Shown here: in pieces, positions 30,766-41,874 of the stretch | Layout: each line of letters starts with the position of its first letter | How positions within the stretch are numbered: the first letter of the stretch is position 1 | Source: Flavobacterium sp. 1 | GTDB lineage: Bacteria; Bacteroidota; Bacteroidia; Flavobacteriales; Flavobacteriaceae | Length of the DNA stretch: 64,000 nucleotides | Assembly (NCBI RefSeq): GCF_002797935.1 | Contig: NZ_PGER01000001.1 | Span: 992,001-1,056,000 of the forward strand | Reading direction: 5' to 3' | The notes under the pieces: generated by a model | Database searches by the model: none | What the model was told of the DNA's origin: nothing | The model's input: the letters and a program-made list of their open reading frames with translations, nothing else | Made by a program: the position numbers and the translations under genes

Positions 30766-31497
30766 TTAATTTAAAGTCTTATGATAATCCATTTTTTCGC
30801 TCCATTCCAATTCATTTGGCAGGTTTTTATTGCTGAATTCGATATGAATTACTCTCCGTCTTTTGTTATTTGTGGTTTTGTTAGAAGCGTGAAAAAGCAA
30901 GGGTTTCATAATCATTATTCCTCCTTTATCAACTTCGCAGATAGTTTCGACTTCGTTCTCGATGTCAACTTTATCGGTTCTGTAAATTCCTTTTTTATGC
31001 GATTTATTTAAGACTTTCAAAGCTCCATTTTCTTTAGTTGTTTTATCCAGATGAATTCTAATTGTAAAAATGTTTTCCAGAATTTCTTTTGGAGGCTGAA
31101 CAGCAAATTGATTTTGCTTATTTGTCCAATTTTCAAAATTTTCTATCTTCATTTTTTTGTCAACTGAAATTGTCAAATCTTGGTGATAAGAAACAAACCA
31201 ATTCGATTTTTCAGGTTTGTCAAAATAAATTGATTTTGTTATGAAATAATCTTCTCCAAAGTTTGATTTTATAATATCAATCAGGTTTTGGTTGAAAATA
31301 AAGTGCAGCGATTCTGGAATTTCTTTGTGGAATTGTCTAATTGCAAATAAATCGTCCGATTTTCGAAATGTTGATTTTTCAGTTTTATTTTCAGTTACGT
31401 TTTCTATTATTGCTGTCAGTTTTTCAATTTCATTTTGATCGTAAACATTTTTTATAATTGTAAAACCTTCAGTTTCTATTTCTTTTAAATTTTGCAT
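30766..31497 (-). CDS. Phytanoyl-CoA dioxygenase (PhyH) family protein
   Basis: 243 residues. A non-haem Fe(II)/2-oxoglutarate dioxygenase: the HxD pair is in SYHQDLT (H105, D107), the distal histidine in LLFHASNK (H203) and the 2-oxoglutarate-binding arginine in NKRRRVIHIEF (R214/R215). Also typical is IRIHLDKTTKENGALKVLNKSH. The substrate is unknown. It has the same strand and AT-rich composition as the cassette array to its right, and its upstream end touches a truncated attC, so it may be a cassette that lost its own recombination site. The convergent GH2 stop is only 18 bases away, with no terminator visible between. Confidence 0.85.
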   Translation of the reverse strand: MQNLKEIETEGFTIIKNVYDQNEIEKLTAIIENVTENKTEKSTFRKSDDLFAIRQFHKEIPESLHFIFNQNLIDIIKSNFGEDYFITKSIYFDKPEKSNWFVSYHQDLTISVDKKMKIENFENWTNKQNQFAVQPPKEILENIFTIRIHLDKTTKENGALKVLNKSHKKGIYRTDKVDIENEVETICEVDKGGIMIMKPLLFHASNKTTNNKRRRVIHIEFSNKNLPNELEWSEKMDYHKTLN

Positions 31498-31541
31498 TTT
31501 TTGACTAAAATTCGTTTAGTTATTGTTTCACAAGTTTAAAA

Positions 31542-31604
31542 ATCCCAAATACAAAACCATCTTTCCATTAAGCCTAATGCCCAAATCCGTTGTAGCTGTT
31601 ATAG
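31542..31604 (-). repeat. Truncated attC site of the lipoprotein cassette
   Basis: Matches the right-hand half of the complete copy at 39179-39305 (CCCAAATAC...CCATTAAGCC...TTGTAGC) and ends with GTTATAGGTGG, which mirrors the start of the lipoprotein cassette. The other half, with GCTACAAGCAGTTTGGG, is missing, so this site is broken and marks the left edge of the array. Confidence 0.7.
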
Positions 31605-31618
31605 GTGGTTTTTCTTTT

Positions 31619-32341
31619 TCAGCGGTCAAATGTCTTATAATTTTGTAGCCAATATTTTTCAATAAAGTCCCGTTTGTCGGCAATTTTCGGAATATGTTTT
31701 AGATATGCTAAAGACGCAATTAATTTCATACTATTATTTTCTGAATTAGTTACTTTATAGATCTCTATTACTTGGGGATTTTCTTTAATCTCAAAGTCGC
31801 AACCTTTTCCATTTATAAAACCATAACCAACCAATTTGTAATTCTCAATTTTACTTAAATGACTTTCCCAATCCATATCTGCACAACCTGCGCGGTTATA
31901 TGAATAATAAAAATCAGTTCCTTTTATTTTTTTAATATCAAGGTCACAATTTTCAATTTGTTTGAATGTCTTAAGATTTTTGTCAAATAGGTAATTCTCA
32001 CACTCGTTAGGAGTATTACTGAAAGTAAAAACCCGAATATCTTTATATCCGTCCTCGTTGATATCTAAAAACTTCGCTTGAAAATAATAATCTTCAGCTT
32101 TTATTATTGTGTCTCCTTTTATTGTTACTAAACAATTGAATTTATCATCTTTTATAGTCTGAATAAACTGAAAGCCATTAATTTGCAAAGTATCAATGTC
32201 AATAATTGTAGTTTCCTTTTGGCGAATATTCGTTTTATTTGACGAACTGTCTGTTTGAGTTTTGTTAATAGGCTCATTGTTTGACTTTGAGTTACAAGAT
32301 GTCAAAATAATGAGAAGTATTATGTTGGTTAGTTTCTTCAT
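31619..32341 (-). CDS. Hypothetical lipoprotein (integron-type cassette gene)
   Basis: 240 residues. The N-terminus KLTNIILLIILTSCNSKSNNEPINKTQTDSSSN is a lipoprotein signal with lipobox LTSC, followed by a disordered, charged linker. The rest, including CLVTIKGDTIIKAEDYYFQAKFLDINEDGYKDIRVF, has an FG-GAP/VCBS-like acidic turn (DINEDGYKDI) that often binds calcium. No known function. It is the last complete gene of the cassette array: the stretch from 32355 (after the MITE) opens TTATAGGTG on the minus strand, and its truncated attC at 31542-31604 ends with the mirror of that sequence. Confidence 0.7.
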   Translation of the reverse strand: MKKLTNIILLIILTSCNSKSNNEPINKTQTDSSSNKTNIRQKETTIIDIDTLQINGFQFIQTIKDDKFNCLVTIKGDTIIKAEDYYFQAKFLDINEDGYKDIRVFTFSNTPNECENYLFDKNLKTFKQIENCDLDIKKIKGTDFYYSYNRAGCADMDWESHLSKIENYKLVGYGFINGKGCDFEIKENPQVIEIYKVTNSENNSMKLIASLAYLKHIPKIADKRDFIEKYWLQNYKTFDR

Positions 32342-32358
32342 AAAATCACCTATAACGT

Positions 32359-32467
32359 CAGTCTGTGAAAAAACTAAAATCTGCTTCCTGAGAATCTCAT
32401 ATTTGAGTTTTTTCTTTGGTAGCCCTCCGAATACTTTCTAAATTTGAAGTAGTTTTTTTACAGCCTG
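32359..32467. mobile_element. 109-bp MITE with IS1182-type ends
   Basis: Left end CAGTCTGTGAAAAAACT and right end, read inward, CAGGCTGTAAAAAAACT match the terminal repeats of the two full IS elements at 34339 and 36712. The interior is unrelated and has no gene. It is flanked by ACGT at 32355-32358 and 32468-32471. It splits an attC at the same place as the two full elements, so it was probably moved by their transposase. Confidence 0.85.
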
Positions 32468-32595
32468 ACGTTCTGGTACTCAGCGGGTTTGGGACTAAAT
32501 TAAGCTCTATTTTCGGATTTGCCAAAATCATCACAAATACAAACCAATTTTTCCATTAAGCCAAATGCCTAAATTGCTTGTAGCGTGTGTTGGCG
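32468..32595 (-). repeat. attC-like site of the HNH cassette (split by the MITE)
   Basis: Imperfect palindrome whose right arm TTGCTTGTAGCGTGTGTTGGCGG is intact while the left arm is diverged (CTGGTACTCAGCGGGTTTGGG instead of CTCGCGCTACAAGCAG...). The outer right end GTTGGCGGT mirrors the start of the HNH cassette (TTGGCGGT on the minus strand at 33367). The core is interrupted by the MITE. Confidence 0.75.
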
Positions 32596-32613
32596 GTTCG
32601 TTGTTTCTTCTTT

Positions 32614-33312
32614 TTACTGATTCCTCCAAATTACTTCAATAGCAAGATAGTTCCAAATTAATATTCTAACAATCTCAACTCCAGATGAAACAGAAACCAT
32701 ATATTGATAAGTTCCTTCTTGAACTATTGTCCAATGTGATAGTATTTCTTGATTATGTCCAATAAGCAAATTTTGTAATCCTCTACTTCCAACTTCTGGT
32801 GCTTTATCAAATACTGTTGGTGTAAAAAAAGCTTCTTCTTCATTTTCATCCATATCAAAGATAGATTTAAAAGCTATACTTGTCGGATTTTCAAATTGAG
32901 GTTCACTATTTTCAAATTTCAAATGTCCTTTCGCTAATTTAGTTATAGCATTTTCAAAACGAGGTAAGTCAATTTTGAAATATTTATTTTCATTTTCTAC
33001 TACAAAAGAACTTTCAATACGTTTCTTTAAATTTTCTTTTTTCGATAGAATTGATTTAATTTTTTGTCTATTTAAAAATTCGATTTCTGTTGTTCCTTGA
33101 ATAATACATTCTATAGCACAAGCAAAATATTCTTCGTCCAACGAAAAACCTTGGTTACATTTATCACAACAAGGTACAACAGGCAAATTTTCAGGAAATG
33201 GTTCATCAAGTAATATTCTAGAAGGTACGTGGTCTCTTGTGTCAGGAAAATCTCCACAATAGGAACACATATTGTCAAGTCGTTTATCACTAAATGTGTT
33301 TATTTGTCTCAA
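32614..33312 (-). CDS. HNH-endonuclease-like zinc protein (cassette gene)
   Basis: 232 residues. Near the N-terminus C16 and C19 (CSYCGD), D27-H28 (TRDHVPSR), and C48/C49 and C52-N53 (CCDKCNQG) form the arrangement CxxC-x7-DH-x19-CxxC-N, as in HNH/McrA-type zinc fingers where the His is catalytic and the cysteines hold zinc. The remaining 180 residues are not recognised. HNH proteins with a short nuclease head and long unknown tail occur in restriction and anti-phage systems, but also elsewhere. It occupies a complete cassette bounded at 33367 and by the attC at 32468-32595. Confidence 0.65.
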   Translation of the reverse strand: MRQINTFSDKRLDNMCSYCGDFPDTRDHVPSRILLDEPFPENLPVVPCCDKCNQGFSLDEEYFACAIECIIQGTTEIEFLNRQKIKSILSKKENLKKRIESSFVVENENKYFKIDLPRFENAITKLAKGHLKFENSEPQFENPTSIAFKSIFDMDENEEEAFFTPTVFDKAPEVGSRGLQNLLIGHNQEILSHWTIVQEGTYQYMVSVSSGVEIVRILIWNYLAIEVIWRNQ

Positions 33313-33367
33313 TTTATTTGTCTTAATTTTTAGTTTTCGTCTTCTTTTTTTTCACAATGACCGCCAA

Positions 33368-33492
33368 CTTTCTCGCGCTACAAGCAGTTTGGGATTAAGT
33401 AAGTCTAATCTTCGGATAAACACAAATTTATCTGATACAAGATCACCTTTCCATAAGCCTAAAACCCAAATTGCTTGTAGCGTGTGTTAGCG
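33368..33492 (-). repeat. attC-like site of the slipin cassette
   Basis: 125 bases. Left arm CTCGCGCTACAAGCAGTTTGGG and right arm CCCAAATTGCTTGTAGCGTGTG are complementary apart from one mismatch and unpaired bases. Right outer end GTTAGCGGTA mirrors the slipin cassette start (TTGGCGGTA, one mismatch). Its left core reads AACTTTC, not AACGTTC, and this site carries no insertion. Confidence 0.82.
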
Positions 33493-33501
33493 GTATGTGG
33501 C

Positions 33502-34269
33502 TTATTTATCAAGTTTCTTTTTATTCACAAGTTCAGTAAAACTTTTTGCAGCGTTTGTAAAGTCAGACGGCATAAGAATTACAGTTGTTGTGTTGTTGTC
33601 AATGCCAATTTCAGATAGCATTTGCATACGTCTAAGTTCAAGTGCAATTGGACTGCCTTCCATTTCTTTTGCTCCTTGTGTCAGTTTAATTGACGCTTCT
33701 AATTCTGCTTCTGCTTTTACAATTCTTGCTCTTTTTTCTCTGATTGCTTCGGCTTCTCTTGCCATAGCTCGTTGCATTGCTTCTGGAATTTCAACATCTT
33801 TCATTTCTACCATTTCAATTTTAATTCCCCAAGGTTCTGTTGTTGTGTCAACTATTTTTTGAAGTGTTCCGTTTATCTGTTCTCTTTCTCTTAAAACTTC
33901 GTCAAGTGTATGCTGTCCGATAATGTTTCTTAGGGCTGTCACTGAAAATTGATAAACCGCTTTGTTGTAGTCAGCAATCTTGATAATTGCGTCTTCAGCA
34001 TTTGTTATTTTAAACCACAATACTGCGTTAACTTTAATCGTTACGCTGTCCTTAGTGATTGTTTCTTGTTGTTCAAGGTCAACCGTTTTTGTTCTAATGT
34101 CAACACGCTGTTGTCGGTCAATTAGAGGTATAATCCAATAAAGTCCAGGACCTTTTATTGATTGAAAACGTCCGAGTCTGAAAACAACTGCACGTTGGTA
34201 TTCTTGTGCAATACGAAGTCCTGATAAGAGTATTGCGATGATGATTCCTAAAATTGGGAGTAGTGTCAT
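33502..34269 (-). CDS. Slipin / SPFH (band 7) domain membrane protein (cassette gene)
   Basis: 255 residues. One hydrophobic helix at the N-terminus (LLPILGIIIAILLSGLRIA), then the SPFH domain: EYQRAVVFRLGRFQSIKGPGLYWIIPLIDRQQRVDIRTKTVDLEQQETITKDSVTIKVNAVLWFKI...YQFSVTALRNIIGQHTLDEVLREREQIN. The end is an alpha-helical, Glu/Ala-rich coiled coil. Slipins organise membrane microdomains and in prokaryotes usually stand beside a NfeD-type protease partner; none is here. The gene sits alone in an integron-type cassette, which is unusual for a housekeeping scaffold. Domain assignment is secure. Confidence 0.93.
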   Translation of the reverse strand: MTLLPILGIIIAILLSGLRIAQEYQRAVVFRLGRFQSIKGPGLYWIIPLIDRQQRVDIRTKTVDLEQQETITKDSVTIKVNAVLWFKITNAEDAIIKIADYNKAVYQFSVTALRNIIGQHTLDEVLREREQINGTLQKIVDTTTEPWGIKIEMVEMKDVEIPEAMQRAMAREAEAIREKRARIVKAEAELEASIKLTQGAKEMEGSPIALELRRMQMLSEIGIDNNTTTVILMPSDFTNAAKSFTELVNKKKLDK

Positions 34270-34338
34270 ATTATTTTGATTTTATGTTTAATTATAAATG
34301 TTCTTGTTTGGTTGTCGTCCTGCCATTACCGCCAACGT

Positions 34339-36051
34339 CAGTCTGTGAAAAAACTTCCGTTTGCTTAGGAACAAATATAACAAAAAACTTGTGTTAAAAC
34401 AGGAATTTTCGTATTTTTAGGAATGCAGCATATCATAGGAATTTCCCGCCACCAGATGCGTATTTCCAGTTTAGAAGACGCCATAGCTCCCGATAATCAA
34501 GTGCGATTTATAGATGCATTTGTGACGTTTACAGACCTTGCTAAGCTGGGTTTTGCAGTGCAAACCATCAAAACCGAAGGCCGCCCGAGCTACGATACCA
34601 AAGTGTTTCTTAAAATCTATTTATACGGTTATCTGGGCGGAATAAGAAGCTCGCGAAAATTAGAGAAGGAATGTTTTAGAAACATTGAAATGCAATGGCT
34701 ATTGGAAGATATTCGTCCCAATTACCACAGCATCTCAGATTTCAGAAAAAACAATCCCGCTGCCTTGAAGAAACTCTTCAAGCTTTTTGTCTCATTCTTG
34801 AAAGATGCGGACTTGATAGGCGGTGAAACCATTGCCATTGACGGCACCAAAAGCCGGGCTCACAACAGCAAAAAAGCCAATTTTAACCAAAAGAAAATTG
34901 ACAAGCACCTGGAATACATTGAGACCAAAACCCAAGAATATCTTGATGCTCTGGAAGCAAATGATGCAAAAGAAAACTCTCCAAAAATCAAAAATGTCCA
35001 ACAAAAAATAGAGTGTCTCAAACAAAACAAAATCCGCTACGAATTGCTGGAAGAAAAACTAAAAGCAAGCGGAGAACCCCAAATAAGCACCACCGACAGC
35101 GATGCCAGAGCATTATTGGTTCAGGGACAGGTGGTTGAAATCTCATTTAATATGCAGGCAGCCGTCGATGCCAAACACAATCTTGTAGTAGCCACGCACA
35201 CCATCAATCGTAATGACCGCAACGCCTTGTCGGCTATTGCCATAGAAGCCAAAGAGAATTTAGAAATAGAAACCTACACGGCTTTGGTGGACAAAGGCTA
35301 TCATAACGGGCGAGAAATAGAAGCCTGTAGGCAAGCCAATATCACTACAATTGTAGCGCAACCCGAACAAGGAAAAAATAAGGAAAACGGAACAACCAAG
35401 GATTATTTTGTTTCTAAGTTCCAATACAATAAAACCACCGACACCTACACTTGCCCACAGGGCGAAACGCTTAAAACTACAGGCCACTGGCACAAGAAAA
35501 CCACGGACAGAGACAGTTATGAGTTCAAGAGATACCGAACACCCAAATGCAGAGAATGTCCTGTAAAACATTTATGCACCAGTAGGATGGCCGGTCGAGA
35601 TATAGACCGCAGCCAATATGCCGATGCCGTAGAAGAAAACAACAAACGCTACCACGCAAATGCACAGCTCTACCGCAAGCGGCAGGAAATCAACGAACAC
35701 ATTTTTGGCACTATCAAACGGCAATGGGGCTACAATCACACCAATTTAACAGGATTGGAAAAAGTAAATGGAGAACACAGCCTGATTATGCTGGTCTATA
35801 ACATCAAACGCAGCATCAATATACTCGGAGTTCCCGAGCTCATTGCCAAACTCAAGAAATGGAACTCACCCTACAAGGCAAAAGTCTTGTTTTTGTTAAA
35901 AATGAGTTATTTAAAACCGAAATTAGACTTCTTTTTCTTTGAAACTAAATTAGCCTCCTAAAAAAGAGGCTTCGTTAAAAGCCCTTATTTGAATTTTGTG
36001 AGGGCAAAATAAAGAGGTTGGAATGAAAAAAAGAGGTTTTTTCACAGCCTG
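34339..36051 (+). mobile_element. IS1182-family insertion sequence, copy 1
   Basis: 1713 bases. Left end CAGTCTGTGAAAAAACTTCC; right end read inward CAGGCTGTGAAAAAACCTC. Flanked by ACGT at 34335-34338 and 36052-36055. It differs from copy 2 at only two positions that I noticed (34422 A versus 36795 G; 35229 G versus 37602 A), so at least one of them moved recently. It splits the attC core of the GNAT cassette. Confidence 0.93.
34423..35961 (+). CDS. IS1182-family DDE transposase, copy 1
   Basis: 512 residues and intact. The N-terminal domain (FLKIYLYGYLGGIRSSRKLEKECFRNIEMQWLLEDIRPNYHSISDFRK) is typical of IS1182/IS5-like enzymes. The catalytic residues are probably the Asp in TIAIDGTKSRAHNS, the Asp in TALVDKGYHNGREI and the Glu in RQEINEHIFGTIKRQWGY. 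A cysteine cluster (CPQGE...CRECPVKHLC) may bind zinc. Codon use is slightly richer in GC than the cassette genes. Confidence 0.95.
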   Translation: MQHIIGISRHQMRISSLEDAIAPDNQVRFIDAFVTFTDLAKLGFAVQTIKTEGRPSYDTKVFLKIYLYGYLGGIRSSRKLEKECFRNIEMQWLLEDIRPNYHSISDFRKNNPAALKKLFKLFVSFLKDADLIGGETIAIDGTKSRAHNSKKANFNQKKIDKHLEYIETKTQEYLDALEANDAKENSPKIKNVQQKIECLKQNKIRYELLEEKLKASGEPQISTTDSDARALLVQGQVVEISFNMQAAVDAKHNLVVATHTINRNDRNALSAIAIEAKENLEIETYTALVDKGYHNGREIEACRQANITTIVAQPEQGKNKENGTTKDYFVSKFQYNKTTDTYTCPQGETLKTTGHWHKKTTDRDSYEFKRYRTPKCRECPVKHLCTSRMAGRDIDRSQYADAVEENNKRYHANAQLYRKRQEINEHIFGTIKRQWGYNHTNLTGLEKVNGEHSLIMLVYNIKRSINILGVPELIAKLKKWNSPYKAKVLFLLKMSYLKPKLDFFFFETKLAS

Positions 36052-36178
36052 ACGTTCTCGCGCTACAAGCAGTTTGGGATTAAATCAGCGTTATCTTTCG
36101 GATTTGCCAAATCTTCCAAATACAAACCAATTTTTCCCTTAAGCCAAATCCCCAAATTGCTTGTAGCGTGTGTTAGCG
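36052..36178 (-). repeat. attC-like site of the GNAT cassette (split by IS copy 1)
   Basis: Left arm CTCGCGCTACAAGCAGTTTGGG and right arm CCCAAATTGCTTGTAGCGTGTG. Outer end GTTAGCGGT mirrors the GNAT cassette start (TTAGCGGT on the minus strand at 36708) over 8 bases. The core AACGTT is cut by IS copy 1, with ACGT on both sides. Confidence 0.85.
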
Positions 36179-36218
36179 GTTCGGGCTTATTTCGGGCTCG
36201 GTTTTTGCCCTGTCATTG

Positions 36219-36665
36219 TTATTTTGAATAAACGTTTTTATTATGAAGTTCCATCCATTTGGTTGGGTCTGCAATGTCTATCCACCCAAATTTACGATAT
36301 AGCTCGTGTGCGTCTCCTGTGAGTAAAATCCAACGTCTTAAACCTTGTAGACTCGGATAGTCCATAACCGTTTCCATTAACCATTTAGAAAGCCCCAATC
36401 CCCTGTATTCTTCTAAAATATATACGTCGCCCAAATAGGCAATCGTTGAAAAATCGGTAATGATTCTTGCAAGGCCAATTTGTTTTTCGTCTTGGTAAAC
36501 ACCAAAGCAGAATGAATTTTCAATAGCAGTTTGCACCTTGTCTTTCGGAATGTTTATGCACCAATACGCTTTGGTTGATAAAAATTCGTGAATGGCGTCA
36601 ATGTCTAATTTTACCTTGTCGGTTGAAATGCAAAACTCGCCTTTGTATATGTTTACGTCTGTCAT
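36219..36665 (-). CDS. GNAT family N-acetyltransferase (cassette gene)
   Basis: 148 residues. The acetyl-CoA pyrophosphate-binding motif EEYRGLGLSKWLM (R/Q-x-x-G-x-G/A type, here R-G-L-G-L) follows the beta strand YLGDVYI. The middle TFNIPKDKVQTAIENSFCFGVYQDEKQIGLARIITDFS is typical of the family. GNAT proteins acetylate amines on small molecules or proteins and are one of the commonest cassette-borne classes, including aminoglycoside acetyltransferases; nothing here shows drug resistance. The cassette (36708 down to its attC) is now enclosed by two direct IS copies. Confidence 0.9.
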   Translation of the reverse strand: MTDVNIYKGEFCISTDKVKLDIDAIHEFLSTKAYWCINIPKDKVQTAIENSFCFGVYQDEKQIGLARIITDFSTIAYLGDVYILEEYRGLGLSKWLMETVMDYPSLQGLRRWILLTGDAHELYRKFGWIDIADPTKWMELHNKNVYSK

Positions 36666-36711
36666 AGTTTCTGTTTACTGTGCGGTGTCGTTTTAGCCTG
36701 ACCGCTAACGT

Positions 36712-38424
36712 CAGTCTGTGAAAAAACTTCCGTTTGCTTAGGAACAAATATAACAAAAAACTTGTGTTAAAACAGGAATTTTCGTATTTTTAGGGATGCA
36801 GCATATCATAGGAATTTCCCGCCACCAGATGCGTATTTCCAGTTTAGAAGACGCCATAGCTCCCGATAATCAAGTGCGATTTATAGATGCATTTGTGACG
36901 TTTACAGACCTTGCTAAGCTGGGTTTTGCAGTGCAAACCATCAAAACCGAAGGCCGCCCGAGCTACGATACCAAAGTGTTTCTTAAAATCTATTTATACG
37001 GTTATCTGGGCGGAATAAGAAGCTCGCGAAAATTAGAGAAGGAATGTTTTAGAAACATTGAAATGCAATGGCTATTGGAAGATATTCGTCCCAATTACCA
37101 CAGCATCTCAGATTTCAGAAAAAACAATCCCGCTGCCTTGAAGAAACTCTTCAAGCTTTTTGTCTCATTCTTGAAAGATGCGGACTTGATAGGCGGTGAA
37201 ACCATTGCCATTGACGGCACCAAAAGCCGGGCTCACAACAGCAAAAAAGCCAATTTTAACCAAAAGAAAATTGACAAGCACCTGGAATACATTGAGACCA
37301 AAACCCAAGAATATCTTGATGCTCTGGAAGCAAATGATGCAAAAGAAAACTCTCCAAAAATCAAAAATGTCCAACAAAAAATAGAGTGTCTCAAACAAAA
37401 CAAAATCCGCTACGAATTGCTGGAAGAAAAACTAAAAGCAAGCGGAGAACCCCAAATAAGCACCACCGACAGCGATGCCAGAGCATTATTGGTTCAGGGA
37501 CAGGTGGTTGAAATCTCATTTAATATGCAGGCAGCCGTCGATGCCAAACACAATCTTGTAGTAGCCACGCACACCATCAATCGTAATGACCGCAACGCCT
37601 TATCGGCTATTGCCATAGAAGCCAAAGAGAATTTAGAAATAGAAACCTACACGGCTTTGGTGGACAAAGGCTATCATAACGGGCGAGAAATAGAAGCCTG
37701 TAGGCAAGCCAATATCACTACAATTGTAGCGCAACCCGAACAAGGAAAAAATAAGGAAAACGGAACAACCAAGGATTATTTTGTTTCTAAGTTCCAATAC
37801 AATAAAACCACCGACACCTACACTTGCCCACAGGGCGAAACGCTTAAAACTACAGGCCACTGGCACAAGAAAACCACGGACAGAGACAGTTATGAGTTCA
37901 AGAGATACCGAACACCCAAATGCAGAGAATGTCCTGTAAAACATTTATGCACCAGTAGGATGGCCGGTCGAGATATAGACCGCAGCCAATATGCCGATGC
38001 CGTAGAAGAAAACAACAAACGCTACCACGCAAATGCACAGCTCTACCGCAAGCGGCAGGAAATCAACGAACACATTTTTGGCACTATCAAACGGCAATGG
38101 GGCTACAATCACACCAATTTAACAGGATTGGAAAAAGTAAATGGAGAACACAGCCTGATTATGCTGGTCTATAACATCAAACGCAGCATCAATATACTCG
38201 GAGTTCCCGAGCTCATTGCCAAACTCAAGAAATGGAACTCACCCTACAAGGCAAAAGTCTTGTTTTTGTTAAAAATGAGTTATTTAAAACCGAAATTAGA
38301 CTTCTTTTTCTTTGAAACTAAATTAGCCTCCTAAAAAAGAGGCTTCGTTAAAAGCCCTTATTTGAATTTTGTGAGGGCAAAATAAAGAGGTTGGAATGAA
38401 AAAAAGAGGTTTTTTCACAGCCTG
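36712..38424 (+). mobile_element. IS1182-family insertion sequence, copy 2
   Basis: 1713 bases, same ends and orientation as copy 1 and nearly identical. Flanked by ACGT at 36708-36711 and 38425-38428. It splits the attC core of the next cassette. The two copies form a direct repeat around the GNAT cassette, so recombination between them would delete it. Confidence 0.93.
36796..38334 (+). CDS. IS1182-family DDE transposase, copy 2
   Basis: 512 residues, identical in protein sequence to copy 1; same catalytic residues and cysteine cluster. The single base change before the start codon (GGGATG here, GGAATG in copy 1) lies in the ribosome-binding area. Confidence 0.95.
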   Translation: MQHIIGISRHQMRISSLEDAIAPDNQVRFIDAFVTFTDLAKLGFAVQTIKTEGRPSYDTKVFLKIYLYGYLGGIRSSRKLEKECFRNIEMQWLLEDIRPNYHSISDFRKNNPAALKKLFKLFVSFLKDADLIGGETIAIDGTKSRAHNSKKANFNQKKIDKHLEYIETKTQEYLDALEANDAKENSPKIKNVQQKIECLKQNKIRYELLEEKLKASGEPQISTTDSDARALLVQGQVVEISFNMQAAVDAKHNLVVATHTINRNDRNALSAIAIEAKENLEIETYTALVDKGYHNGREIEACRQANITTIVAQPEQGKNKENGTTKDYFVSKFQYNKTTDTYTCPQGETLKTTGHWHKKTTDRDSYEFKRYRTPKCRECPVKHLCTSRMAGRDIDRSQYADAVEENNKRYHANAQLYRKRQEINEHIFGTIKRQWGYNHTNLTGLEKVNGEHSLIMLVYNIKRSINILGVPELIAKLKKWNSPYKAKVLFLLKMSYLKPKLDFFFFETKLAS

Positions 38425-38551
38425 ACGTTCTCGCGCTACAAGCAGTTTGGGATTAAATTAAGCCCTATTTTCGGATTTGCCAAATCTTCCAAATACAAAC
38501 CAATTTTTCCCTTAAGCCAAATCCCCAAATTGCTTGTAGAGTGTGTTGTGC
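38425..38551 (-). repeat. attC-like site of the secreted-protein cassette (split by IS copy 2)
   Basis: Left arm CTCGCGCTACAAGCAGTTTGGG; right arm CCCAAATTGCTTGTAGAGTGTG. Outer end GTTGTGCGTC exactly mirrors the start of its own cassette (TTGTGCGTC on the minus strand at 39178), a nine-base match not shared with neighbouring cassettes. Confidence 0.87.
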
Positions 38552-38560
38552 GTCGTTTTT

Positions 38561-39133
38561 TTATTTATAATCAGTTGAAATAGAAGTTTCGCTTAGATTT
38601 AGAATTCTAATAATATCAAATTTTTCACCTTCAAACATCGCATTTAGAACATTGTCTTTTAGATATTCTTTTGTTTGTGAGTCCCAAGACAGATTTTCAA
38701 CTTGATTTTTATCCCAATTTAAAATATAGCTTTTTGATTTTCTTAAAAATTTATGAGTTTCTATAGTGCCTTTTGTTGGATTTACAGGTCTTGCATAAAT
38801 AACTTCTTTTGCTTCTTTTTCAATGAAAATAGGTTTTTTATTTTGTAAATAAATTTTTATTGATTCATAACTTTCCAAATTATTGCCTGTAGAATAATAT
38901 TCAATTTTAACTATCTTGTTATTAATCTTTTTTACAATAATATTTTCATTTGTATTATATTTTTTTACCTTGATAATTTCTGAAGGGGGAACTTCATAAG
39001 TTTTTAAATTTGAATTTTGATTTATTTTAAAAATTGTTTTTTCAATTTTTAAAATAGAATCATTCTTGCTTTGAGCATACAGATTTGTGACACAAAATAA
39101 AATAATTAAAAATACAGATAATATTTTTTTCAT
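38561..39133 (-). CDS. Hypothetical secreted protein (cassette gene)
   Basis: About 190 residues from the favoured start at 39133: signal peptide MKKILSVFLIILFCVTNLYAQS, then a lysine-rich, beta-prone sequence (EVPPSEIIKVKKYNTNENIIVKKINNKIVKIEYYSTGNN). The frame extends to 39178, but those extra 15 codons overlap the cassette boundary and precede a clear signal peptide. No family recognised. It fills the cassette between the attC at 39179 and the attC at 38425-38551. Confidence 0.65.
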   Translation of the reverse strand: MKKILSVFLIILFCVTNLYAQSKNDSILKIEKTIFKINQNSNLKTYEVPPSEIIKVKKYNTNENIIVKKINNKIVKIEYYSTGNNLESYESIKIYLQNKKPIFIEKEAKEVIYARPVNPTKGTIETHKFLRKSKSYILNWDKNQVENLSWDSQTKEYLKDNVLNAMFEGEKFDIIRILNLSETSISTDYK

Positions 39134-39178
39134 TGATTGTTGTTTTGGTTTTCTGTTGTTTCTTAAAATGACGCACAA

Positions 39179-39305
39179 CGTTCCCGCGCTACAAGCAGTT
39201 TGGGACTAAATTAAGCCCTATTTTCGGATTTGCCAAATCATCCCAAATACAAAACCATCTTTCCATTAAGCCTAATACCCAAATTGCTTGTAGCGTGTGT
39301 TGAAC
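39179..39305 (-). repeat. Complete attC-like site (127 bases, no insertion)
   Basis: The best uninterrupted copy. Left arm CGCGCTACAAGCAGTTTGGG, right arm CCCAAATTGCTTGTAGCGTG. Outer end GTTGAAC mirrors the cassette start at 39559 (TTGAAC on the minus strand). Core AACGTTC is intact. Confidence 0.87.
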
Positions 39306-39450
39306 TAAACCTTCGGTAGCTGTATTACGTGAATACAACGTCTCAAAAAATAGCTCTAAATCAAATTTCAAAAACAATAGTGCAACATAAATATATTTCT
39401 TATTTTTGAGCTGTAAAAAACTAATCAACAAAATTTTAATTCATTTAAAA

Positions 39451-39553
39451 TTAGATATTTGTCGATAAATCCATAATAAGCTTAGTAAGCTTTCTTAAAT
39501 ATTCCTTTTCACACTTTTCGATAACTCCATAGGGATGGATGTACAGCGGTTCC
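39451..39553 (-). pseudogene. Remnant C-terminal coding fragment in a cassette without an intact gene
   Basis: The cassette 39179-39559 has no complete gene. One frame on the minus strand reads YIHPYGVIEKCEKEYLRK then LTKLIMDLSTNI and stops at 39451; it looks like the tail of a real protein but has no start codon before the cassette boundary. It was not assigned to a family. Confidence 0.4.
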
Positions 39554-39559
39554 GTTCAA

Positions 39560-39613
39560 CACGGGTTTCATTGTTGGTGCTACGCACCCAACGAAACCCT
39601 TGCTGTTAGCTGT
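39560..39613 (-). repeat. Short attC-like site (54 bases) of the NTase-hydrolase cassette
   Basis: Arms GGGTTTC-ATT-GTTGG-TGC and GCACCCAACGAAACCC pair with unpaired extra bases on one side, the pattern attC sites use for strand choice. Outer right end GTTAGCTGTA mirrors the first nine bases of its cassette at 40837. The left junction on the minus strand is GTTGAAC, a perfect match to GTTRRRY. Unrelated in sequence to the 127-base sites. Confidence 0.82.
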
Positions 39614-39618
39614 AGGGT

Positions 39619-40794
39619 TTATTTGCTATATTTCCTTTTATAATACTCCACTTTTTCGGTTTGATATGAATATCTATTGGCGTTTAGAAATGGCATCCAT
39701 TTGCTTTCAATGATATCTCTTTTTATGGAATTATTATGGTTTAATATTTCAAAACTATTTTGTGTTAACATTGATGTTTTACTTTCAAACCCTTCAATAC
39801 CAGCTTGTCCAAAAATAGGACTCATTCCTATATATTTTTTCAATTCTGATGAAGGCATATATTTAACAAACTCATCATTAGGTGCAATGGTATTATAGAC
39901 ACTTCCTACACTATATCCTCTATATTTTTCCCATTCAAAATTTTTATTCAAAATCGATCCTGTTAGTATAATACTATTAAAAGCCACAGGAGAAAACTCT
40001 TCATTAATAAAACCTTCTAGATATGCTCCAATTATGTATGTTCCAAAAGAATGTGCAATGATTGAAATTTCTCCTTCAAACCGACTTTGTAGGTCGTATA
40101 TCCACTCTCGAAAATCATCCACTACTTTAGATCTTTTTCCTGGTTTAAAAAGCAAATCAGGTTTATTAGTTTCGTAGGTGTAGGGTGCAAAAATCCAATC
40201 TTGGCTACTTGCGATAGGTGCAATTTCCTGATTCCATTCAGCTTCACTTAATAAACCGTGAATACTTACCAATATTCCTCGTTTCTCTTTTAAATCAATT
40301 AAACTTCGGTCATTATAGACTCTTTTTATAATTTCAAAATCTTCATCATTCGGGTAATGCCTTATTTCCCATATTTTATTTTTAGCATAAAGATCGATTT
40401 GAATAACCCCAACATCTTTGCTACCATATCTGCAAGTTGAGAATAGTTTTATGTAAGAGTCAATTAAATTTGGACTTTCTAATGAAGCAAATAGAATATC
40501 AAATTTTAATCCTTTAATAGAAACTTCTTCCGTATTGTTAGGAATATATCTATCTTCATTAAACACTATAACACAATCTAAATCTTTTGGGTTTTTATTT
40601 GCAGTAATAAAAGAACCTCCAATGAAAACTTCTACAGCTCCCCGTTCTTGTGCATAGTCTAAAATATCACTTATTGGTTTTACGAAATTTTTACGAATTT
40701 CACTTAAGCAAAATCTATTGAGAAACTCCTCGCCTGAACAAATATGTATTCCTATTGGTAGTTTTCCTTGGGTTGTAAATTCAGGTATTGTCAT
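39619..40794 (-). CDS. Nucleotidyltransferase-alpha/beta hydrolase fusion (cassette gene)
   Basis: 391 residues with two enzyme domains. The N-terminal part (about 35-140) has the minimal nucleotidyltransferase pattern: GGSF (59-62), then D71 and D73 in NPKDLDCVIVF, and D99 in LKFDILFA, which can form the metal-binding triad; this resembles DUF6932-type proteins. The C-terminal part (about 172-340) is an alpha/beta hydrolase: oxyanion HG (179-180), nucleophile S249 in IIAHSFGTYI, and probable acid D307 in IAPNDEF; the His is not certain (perhaps in LNHNN). No signal peptide, so cytoplasmic. I know no characterised protein with this pair. It is the first cassette of the array. Confidence 0.75.
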   Translation of the reverse strand: MTIPEFTTQGKLPIGIHICSGEEFLNRFCLSEIRKNFVKPISDILDYAQERGAVEVFIGGSFITANKNPKDLDCVIVFNEDRYIPNNTEEVSIKGLKFDILFASLESPNLIDSYIKLFSTCRYGSKDVGVIQIDLYAKNKIWEIRHYPNDEDFEIIKRVYNDRSLIDLKEKRGILVSIHGLLSEAEWNQEIAPIASSQDWIFAPYTYETNKPDLLFKPGKRSKVVDDFREWIYDLQSRFEGEISIIAHSFGTYIIGAYLEGFINEEFSPVAFNSIILTGSILNKNFEWEKYRGYSVGSVYNTIAPNDEFVKYMPSSELKKYIGMSPIFGQAGIEGFESKTSMLTQNSFEILNHNNSIKRDIIESKWMPFLNANRYSYQTEKVEYYKRKYSK

Positions 40795-40844
40795 AAATAT
40801 AATATTATCTCTGGTTATTTGTTAACCTTACAGCTAACTAGTAT

Positions 40845-40869
40845 ATATGTGTGACTCCGTCACACATAT
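40845..40869. repeat. Perfect hairpin at the right edge of the array
   Basis: ATATGTGTGAC-TCC-GTCACACATAT: 11-base arms around a 3-base loop, only 7 bases beyond the last cassette junction (40837/40838). It may belong to an attI-like or attC-like site, or be a terminator for incoming transcription. It lacks an obvious RYYYAAC partner box. Confidence 0.6.
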
Positions 40870-40921
40870 CCGCCCAAAATCGGGTGTATAAGTGTGATAA
40901 AATACGCACTTTTCTCAAAAC

Positions 40922-40929
40922 CAAATATA
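40922..40929 (-). promoter_or_regulatory. -7 promoter box reading into the cassette array
   Basis: TATATTTG on the minus strand, about 130 bases upstream of the first cassette gene. A TTG occurs 14 bases further upstream, which is short of the usual spacing. If used, it would serve as the common cassette promoter (Pc-like). Confidence 0.45.
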
Positions 40930-41109
40930 CATATTAATCCTTACAAATCATCAAAGGGACTTTTTATTTGGCTTCTGCAATCAGTCTATTTTATGAATCT
41001 TTTTGAACACCTCAAGCTGTGTCAGCAAGGTCTCTATTTATTTTGCTTTTTCGGGCAATATTTTGAGTAAAGCAAGTTTTTGATTAAAATATAATCAGAA
41101 GGAGATGAA

Positions 41110-41874
41110 CTATTTTTTCTGTTTTATTTCATGGATATCTCTTTTCAGTTCCAGAAACATCTCTTTGACAGTATCGGATTCTGTGGTCAGGAGTTTAGCG
41201 TCGTCTCTTCCAATATGGCATACATATTCCCAAATCTCCAAAATATCAGAAAGCTTGATTTCGTATGGGCTGTAAATGATATTGTCTGAAACTACAGTTA
41301 CCGAATCATCATTTTTATTCCCAAGCCGTTTATAGGTAATCCCTTCGCTGGAGGTAATGAGTATGTAGGTTTTGTTCTGTTTTATTTCTCCCAGATTGTC
41401 TACATATTTTCCGACCACAAAGGATTTATTGGTGTGCGGCGGCATAGAATCGCCGTTAATCGGGAAAGCCCTCATTTTGCCCAAACCTAAAAACGGAAGT
41501 GCTATCTGCTGCAGGTTTTCTATGTATTCGGCATCGGCATAACCGCTCAGATAGCCGGCTTGTGCTTTGTGCGGGATAATTTCGATAAGGTTGTTTCCAT
41601 CAGTATCAACTGTTATGGGCAAAACTATTCGGTTGTCTTCTAACAGCATTAAATTATCAATAGAAATTTTTCGCAGATCAACCGTCAAAAGCAAATCGAT
41701 ACTGATATGGTAATACCGTGAAATAATCACCAGCGTTTCGGCAGGCGGCGTGTTTTTTCCGTATTCATATTTCTTGTAGCGGTCAAGGGGCAGCGCCATT
41801 CCGTCTGAGACTTCCTGCTGCGAGAGATTTCGCTTGCTTCTCAGCCATTTAAGATTGTCAGAAATATATAACAT
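41110..41874 (-). CDS. XRE-family regulator with S24/LexA-like C-terminal domain
   Basis: 254 residues. N-terminal helix-turn-helix (about 1-65: NLKWLRSKRNLSQQEVSDGMALPLDRYKKYEYGKNTPPAETLVIISRYYHI). The C-terminal part resembles the S24 peptidase fold: KAQAGYLSGYADAEYIENLQQIALPFL followed by FPINGDSMPPH (the Ser in GDSM would be the nucleophile) and TYILITSSEGITYKRL with the partner lysine. Bacteroidota carry such regulators for stress or SOS-type control. An inverted repeat around its own -7 box suggests autorepression. A 185-base repeat separates it from the divergent nuclease gene. Confidence 0.85.
   Translation of the reverse strand: MLYISDNLKWLRSKRNLSQQEVSDGMALPLDRYKKYEYGKNTPPAETLVIISRYYHISIDLLLTVDLRKISIDNLMLLEDNRIVLPITVDTDGNNLIEIIPHKAQAGYLSGYADAEYIENLQQIALPFLGLGKMRAFPINGDSMPPHTNKSFVVGKYVDNLGEIKQNKTYILITSSEGITYKRLGNKNDDSVTVVSDNIIYSPYEIKLSDILEIWEYVCHIGRDDAKLLTTESDTVKEMFLELKRDIHEIKQKK

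Follow-up and report, generated by a model that had tools for sequence, protein, structure and literature searches.

A gene cassette array in a Flavobacterium chromosome as the probable cassette part of a second, Bacteroidota-centred lineage of integrons

A stretch of 64,000 nucleotides from the 5.35 Mb, single-contig genome of Flavobacterium sp. 1 (contig positions 992001-1056000; hereafter the window, in whose numbering coordinates are given unless another locus is named) contains seven minus-strand units, running from 40837 down to approximately 31542, that a first-pass annotation made from the letters alone had described as an integron-type gene cassette array without an integrase. The locus raises the question of what kind of system such an array belongs to, and where its recombinase is to be sought. 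The analysis presented here indicates, with a probability of about 0.9, that the array represents the cassette portion of an integron from a second lineage centred on the Bacteroidota. This reading draws on features visible in the sequence, namely the anatomy of the array, the mirroring of each cassette start in its own attC site, the structure of these sites, the linkage of integrase, attI and array, and the sharing of cassettes between species.

All seven minus-strand units were found as described. Every cassette starts immediately after a G^TT crossover point, and the closing palindromes comprise one long family at five cassettes, a short unrelated type at cassette 1 and a half-lost long palindrome at cassette 7. 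The first bases of the cassettes are mirrored at the outer end of their own attC, the exact match, including the G before the crossover, being 10, 7, 10, 9, 3, 9 and 10 nt for cassettes 1-7; in cassette 5, which encodes a slipin, there is a single mismatch at the fourth base (counting the G) and agreement again up to base 10. Counted without the G and leaving out the slipin cassette, these values reproduce the 9, 6, 9, 8, 8 and 9 reported in the first-pass annotation. The diagonal sum of 58 was attained by 4 of the 5040 possible start-to-end permutations, the true one included, and the palindromes that adjoin the cassette starts on the DNA match them over just 3-4 nt. The rule is valid also for the short, unrelated attC of cassette 1. 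The earlier claim of attC-like palindromes at every unit was upheld for the five full-length long sites (B-F), which were matched at 44.8, 99.6, 99.8, 87.8 and 98.8 bits by a covariance model, R1, built from other genomes than this one and representing only the long attC class (116-122 nt; its E-values are rough). It needed amending at both ends of the array: the attC of cassette 1 is short and is not a GCTACAAGC repeat, and the long palindrome of the last cassette (attC A, 31542-31607), although present, has lost its right half and gave no match to R1.

The companion claim that no tyrosine recombinase is present holds for complete genes in the window, but positions 40941-40965 (minus strand) are the 3' tip of a tyrosine-recombinase gene, coding for KSPFDDL and a stop codon. 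This tip is followed by TATATTTG, a promoter-like -7 box at 40922-40929 (minus strand, position read from the sequence), and then by a dyad-rich, attI-like stretch (40838-40910, minus strand) ending TATATACTAG^TT, with the crossover between the G at 40838 and the T at 40837. The bases of the tip are the same as the 3' end of an intact integrase gene at 789.7-790.8 kb of the same genome (locus L026, 11684-12811), which has its own attI and cassettes bearing the same long attC; counted from the first TTG its reading frame comprises 375 codons, and a start at an internal ATG would yield 347 aa. A third copy, in locus L027 of the same genome, contains in-frame stops (one TGA and two TAA) and has an attI and a long attC behind it. 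Given the integrase tip and attI in the window and the intact copy in L026, the window array is therefore read as an integron that has lost its integrase gene, in a genome still encoding an intact integrase. The array type named in the first-pass annotation was borne out by the covariance model, cross-species comparison and shared cassettes, and the words "without an integrase" have to be restricted accordingly. A search of the genome for intI (TIGR02249), as had been suggested, gave none over the cut-off, a result that by itself misleads in a genome with an intact integrase of another kind; matches below the cut-off provided the lead to it. In all, 15 tyrosine-recombinase matches were obtained in the genome.

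The L026 integrase scored 209.3 bits against the IntI family model TIGR02249, below its cut-off of 265, and 222.3 bits against the XerA model NF040815, above the curated cut-off of 220. A scan of named genomes with this protein confirmed at least 557 relatives, the best 80 of which, together with L026, L027 and the window, form the set of 83 loci used below. These 80 derive from many Flavobacterium spp., Lutibacter, Chitinophagaceae, Saprospiraceae, Algoriphagus, Pelobium and Bacteroidales metagenome-assembled genomes (MAGs), with one Ignavibacteria MAG and one MAG labelled Azoarcus. In a protein search, 7316 of 8000 scored clusters matched at E<=1e-80, some of which may fall outside the clade, and among the best 120 matches listed many were named XerD and a few site-specific tyrosine recombinase/integron integrase. 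The distance between the K..DR and HxLRH motifs was 59 residues in 74 and 58 in one of the 75 loci with both motifs found (of 80, L030-L109), compared with 100 residues in all 19 of 20 IntI proteins in which they were found. On alignment to 2a3v, 18 residues stand against 60, indicating absence of the IntI-specific insertion, or patch. In a tree the integrases form a clade separate from IntI, long branches leaving its placement relative to IntI undecided and its unity being partly a product of selection, as its rows came from similarity matches. Many, not all, members have an N-terminal domain of approximately 70 residues, predicted as beta-beta-alpha-beta-beta-alpha (residues 1-66) in a model of the L031 integrase whose alignment rows barely cover those residues.

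A pattern search placed an attI behind the integrase stop codon in 73 of the 83 loci, some of these calls being pattern errors; 44 of these loci have the crossover 99-109 nt downstream of the stop. In 41 aligned copies AG^TT is common and is preceded by a TATA-like stretch. The inner arms covary between species, 149 cells being changed on both sides against 49.7 when shuffled and at most 75 when slid, and columns 20-56 are paired in 93% with four pair types. Taken as a single hairpin, the site shows strong pairing of columns 19-24 with 51-57 (89.0% of cells) and a weak outer helix (58.5%). Three segments of attI are mutually complementary, which would fit repeated protein-binding half-sites as well as a hairpin. 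Ahead of attI, 40 of 69 loci have TAnnTTTG no more than 45 nt from the end of the integrase gene, the background being 2.5%; we take it to be a Bacteroidota-type -7 box, and it constitutes a candidate cassette promoter, Pc. In the 41 attI sites a half-site of 5-6 nt recurs three to four times (columns 7-12, 19-24, 51-57 and 63-68); its sequence varies by locus with the copies changing together, even between sister integrases (e.g. L037 and L042).

Mirroring of cassette starts was also observed beyond the window. For first cassettes, at least 8 bases (9 with the G) were mirrored within approximately 2.5 kb in 40 of the 73 loci with an attI call, and of 72 starts taken from other loci only 1-5 did as well at those loci. 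When the arrays were walked by this rule, 34 of the 73 loci yielded 86 cassettes in total, the longest chain being eight, compared with 5 successes from 1344 random GTTR starts upstream of integrases. Matches of at least 9 nt including the G were present in 81 of the 86, the median cassette length was 968 nt, and the longest reading frame followed the array direction in 79. Of the motif GTTRRRY just GTTR is general, GTT itself being demanded by the walker. An earlier walker with a rigid stem rule, since replaced, had found only 30 cassettes in 20 of the 73 loci; a walk over the own-genome and relative loci, in which false chains arose at runs of T and known sites were missed, was excluded from the counts.

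The structure of the attC sites was consistent between genomes. Among 42 sites, compensatory changes were found in all 18 modelled stem pairs, and 230 stem cells were changed on both sides, against 75.4 when shuffled and at most 64 when slid. In the long attC stem approximately 20 pairs stay in register and a single mismatch is fixed, an A at position 15 after AAC facing a C (62 of 86 sites; 61 of the 74 in the 100-139 nt class), and regular extrahelical bases were not found in this stem. In 60 distinct arm pairs (left arm versus reversed right arm), mismatches were A/G in 87 cases and G/A in none, T/C in 30 and C/T in 8, and from this asymmetry it follows that the bottom strand has G.T where the top strand has A.C at the main position. 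The folding energy of the outer stem favoured the bottom strand in 57 of 66. Site lengths from R'' to R' in the walked arrays were mostly near 44, 84, 110-121 and 162 nt. For comparison, 20 canonical IntI loci of the same phylum were walked with the same walker at a laxer setting, using the strand of the longest chain, and gave 79 attC in 13 loci. The A+15/C-19 pair was present in 2 of these 79 as opposed to 62 of the 86 new sites, a measure weakened by the strand of the IntI chains not being fixed. The best ungapped 20-bp stem match, which is strand-independent, had a mode of 17 in the new sites (range 12-19, n=81) and ranged from 9 to 14 in IntI-type sites (n=77); it was chosen as the measure of bulging because a gapped aligner puts gaps in the new sites too. 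Model R1 identified at least 41 sites in the Flavobacterium sp. 1 genome at E<=0.01 (150 of 6592 candidates scored), both clustered and single. At E<=1e-5 it matched 179 of the 247 genomes of the class, for each of which 13 candidates were scored, whereas a 100 kb stretch of E. coli gave no match at E<=1.

Cassettes were found to be shared between genomes in other positions. Over its full length, cassette 1 of F. denitrificans shares 94.3% identity with cassette 5 of a Bacteroidia MAG (L089), and its identity with a Pelobium stretch is 93.3%; cassette 4 of the same MAG is 99.9% identical to DNA directly behind an attI in G001. The GNAT cassette of the window recurs at 96-98% identity in G448, G397, G598 (two copies) and G399, the match extending from cassette base 1 each time and the preceding DNA differing, being an attC, an insertion sequence (IS) or, in G399, an attI. 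Contig 24 of G399 (L197) thus resembles the window in having an attI with a cassette but, within the 16 kb extracted, no integrase. The body of the geneless cassette 2 has an identical copy at approximately 4155.7 kb of its own genome (L143). In several species pairs the shared cassettes start at the same base and have other neighbours, and from these comparisons the cassettes appear to move as units.

The integrase was also present on two Chryseobacterium plasmids, L165 (NZ_CP041688.1) and L166 (NZ_CP094530.1), of which just one gave cassettes with the walker. A group II intron gene lies among the genes behind the integrase in L165. On a Rufibacter tibetensis plasmid (L167, NZ_CP012644.1) a more distant recombinase, joining the clade with a support of 86, is followed by a row of small same-strand genes in which the walker found no cassette chain; this is possibly another cassette system. 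A recombinase at L027:7443-8282 was set aside as half of an IS91-type pair, as its frame overlaps a transposase-like frame and it falls outside the clade; L166 has an annotated pair of IS91 neighbours built in the same way. A plasmid DNA search with window positions 31500-33500 gave no match.

In the mechanism we infer from these data, a tyrosine recombinase that is allied to XerA and IntI but lacks the patch would cut cassettes out as circles (attC x attC) and reinsert them at attI (attC x attI), which lies approximately 105 nt behind the 3' end of the integrase gene, with gene, attI and cassettes all codirectional. Crossover at G^TT would leave the first bases of a cassette paired with the outer end of its own attC, and breakage at this point together with excision as a circle would explain why these bases belong to that attC. 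In the window the integrase gene would have been deleted to its last codons, with attI, promoter-like box and seven cassettes kept, and the intact integrase at 790 kb could act on these cassettes in trans. The attC is probably used as a folded single strand, the bottom strand being the likely substrate, as in IntI integrons. Strand choice would be set by fixed non-Watson-Crick stem pairs, the wobbles serving as an orientation mark, and not by bulged bases, an arrangement that would fit an enzyme without the patch, which in IntI contacts the bulged bases of attC. It seems to us about evenly balanced whether a patchless, Xer-like integrase of this kind, with attC sites in most genomes of the class sampled, reads, 15 nt from AAC, a fixed G.T wobble (A.C on the opposite strand) in place of extrahelical bases and may have arisen independently of IntI.

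IntI integrons, including class 1, VchIntIA and the IntI type of the same phylum, share with this system a tyrosine recombinase beside attI, tandem cassettes with an AAC/GTT core, pairing of cassette ends with their own attC, palindromic attC with covarying stems, and fragments without an integrase. They differ in that here the IntI patch is missing (59 versus 100 residues between the two catalytic motifs), the long attC stems lack regular extrahelical bases and have a fixed A.C mismatch, attI lies behind the integrase 3' end, and an N-terminal domain of approximately 70 residues is found in many members. The system is integron-like in its working, yet it is not filed as an IntI integron because two defining IntI features, the patch and the extrahelical bases, are lacking. 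The IntI insertion is described as essential for integron function (PMC8138268), and extrahelical bases as interacting prominently with IntI and as the main determinant of attC strand choice, with a 20-300-fold effect (PMC6393395). Smyshlyaev 2021 states that the insertion is not fully conserved in an integron-like subgroup of simple tyrosine recombinases, the passages considered mentioning no cassette arrays for members without it, among which the present clade may fall (PMC8138268). As described, reverse integrons of Treponema likewise have integrase and cassettes codirectional, with intI as the integrase gene (PMC7691350). Compared with the XerA-like simple tyrosine recombinases (NF040815, site-specific tyrosine recombinase/integron integrase), the proteins considered here are linked to attI and a cassette array and have the N-terminal domain. 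A literature search by title and abstract opening found no description of this system among the papers listed, preprints and most subscription papers lying outside the search.

Several other explanations of the array were weighed. It could be a canonical cluster of attC sites lacking integron-integrases (CALIN), left or served by an ordinary IntI integron; the AAC/GTT cores, palindromic sites and own-end pairing are what such a cluster would have, and among 395 genomes of the phylum 105 have a canonical IntI that scores above the cut-off. No IntI exceeds the cut-off in this genome, however, the new attC differ from the 79 IntI-type attC in the +15 pair (strand not fixed there) and in ungapped stem matches, and R1 gave just 2 weak matches, at E<=0.01, in 360 kb of IntI loci; this explanation is considered highly improbable. 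Somewhat less improbable, though still very unlikely, is an array of new type worked by the host XerC/D or another recombinase, with the neighbouring integrase gene as a passenger. The genome has 15 tyrosine-recombinase matches from which such an enzyme might come, and the activity of the integrase is predicted from its sequence; set against this, the same recombinase clade lies at a near-constant distance from attI in many Bacteroidota, and arrays without a clade integrase, as in the window and in G399 (L197), look like relics.

Least probable of all, to the point of being hardly credible, is that the palindromes are ordinary repeats resembling repetitive extragenic palindromes (REP) or miniature inverted-repeat transposable elements (MITEs), between which genes have been shuffled by homologous recombination or by IS. 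IS and MITE copies do lie at the repeats, which are similar enough to recombine, but homologous exchange does not make the start of a unit mirror its own far end, shared units start at the same base in several species pairs, and the mirroring extends to the unrelated short attC of cassette 1.

A number of observations weigh against the assignment to a second integron lineage. For 39 of the 73 loci in which attI was called the walk produced no cassette; 11 of the 39 stop approximately 210 nt or less from the call and some calls are pattern errors, the remainder being unexplained. Sites outside 100-139 nt mostly lack the +15 A.C mismatch, which is present in 1 of 12, and the strand bias in whole-site energy is modest, with the bottom strand more stable in 54 of 86 and the top in 29. 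The gapped aligner placed a gap in 42 of the 86 new sites, the right and left sides being affected about equally, compared with 76 of 77 IntI-type sites. Relatives of the slipin cassette in five genomes (76-89% identity) match only from base 35-115, so that here the comparison of related genomes gave no exact boundary. In two relatives, with approximately 90% identity across the flanking repressor gene, this gene is adjoined by an MreB-like gene and the array is absent; as the MreB-like gene has no match in the window, the empty site is seen on one side only, and the difference may reflect a rearrangement. Finally, the case is one of sequence comparison, in which recombination products were not observed. 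With these points taken into account, the second-lineage reading keeps the probability given above. If true, such a lineage would reveal what is essential to the integron mechanism, neither bulges nor the IntI insertion being regular here; it would give access to a large reservoir of cassette genes on the chromosomes and plasmids of Bacteroidota and would make the integrase a new candidate single-strand recombinase.

The contents of the array are as follows, all cassettes being on the minus strand. Cassette 1 (39560-40837; attC 39560-39616) encodes a 391-aa protein with a DUF6932 domain, and cassette 2 (39179-39559; attC F, 39179-39307) has no evident gene. Cassette 3 (38427-39178; attC E, 38427-38553) had been labelled a secreted protein in the first-pass annotation and gave no Pfam match. 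Cassette 4 (36054-36708; attC D, 36054-36180) encodes the GNAT acetyltransferase and cassette 5 (33368-34335; attC C, 33368-33494) the slipin (Band 7). Cassettes 6 (32470-33367; attC B, 32470-32597) and 7 (31542-32355), previously labelled HNH and lipoprotein-like, respectively, also gave no Pfam match. The array is flanked by an HTH/S24 repressor-like gene (41110-41874, minus strand) and, beyond the half-lost attC A, by a PhyH dioxygenase gene (30766-31497, minus strand). The first cassette of the intact array (L026:11056-11580) encodes a protein with the C-terminal domain of the type VI secretion system (T6SS) immunity protein Tdi1 (PF08906). Rfam gave nothing at gathering score; a match of the microRNA model MIR7807 to attC F (E 0.014; 29.6 against a gathering score of 90) was taken as chance.

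Three of the window attC are occupied at their crossover point by mobile elements, two by copies of a 1717-bp IS on the plus strand (36710-38426 at attC E and 34337-36053 at attC D), whose 512-aa transposase was recognized by its DDE domains, and one by a 113-bp MITE with the ends of this IS (32357-32469, at attC B). The IS is presumably of the IS1182 type. In the window and in the nine own-genome loci read (L026-L029, L140-L144) an IS1182-like element or MITE was observed with an attC right arm, or an IS110-type end in its place, on one side and the start of the following cassette on the other. The orientation was the same in every case in which the ends could be distinguished, and some copies form head-to-tail tandems. 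The genome has 51 IS-end-like copies, not all of them read, with none in a reversed-pattern control. The element seems, from its positions, to be a DDE transposon aimed at attC crossovers. IS1111-attC elements and group IIC-attC introns are likewise mobile elements that target attC, from which the window element differs in being a DDE transposon with a 113-bp MITE, located at the crossover point. Elements of IS110 type, which resemble the IS1111-attC elements known from other integrons, were also found at or inside attC (L026, 4235-5236 and 6489-7490; L027, 9312-10313; L165, 13302-14303), and a conserved outer end (..tctaaaggtagtaccagaac) is shared by those in L026, L027 and L142.

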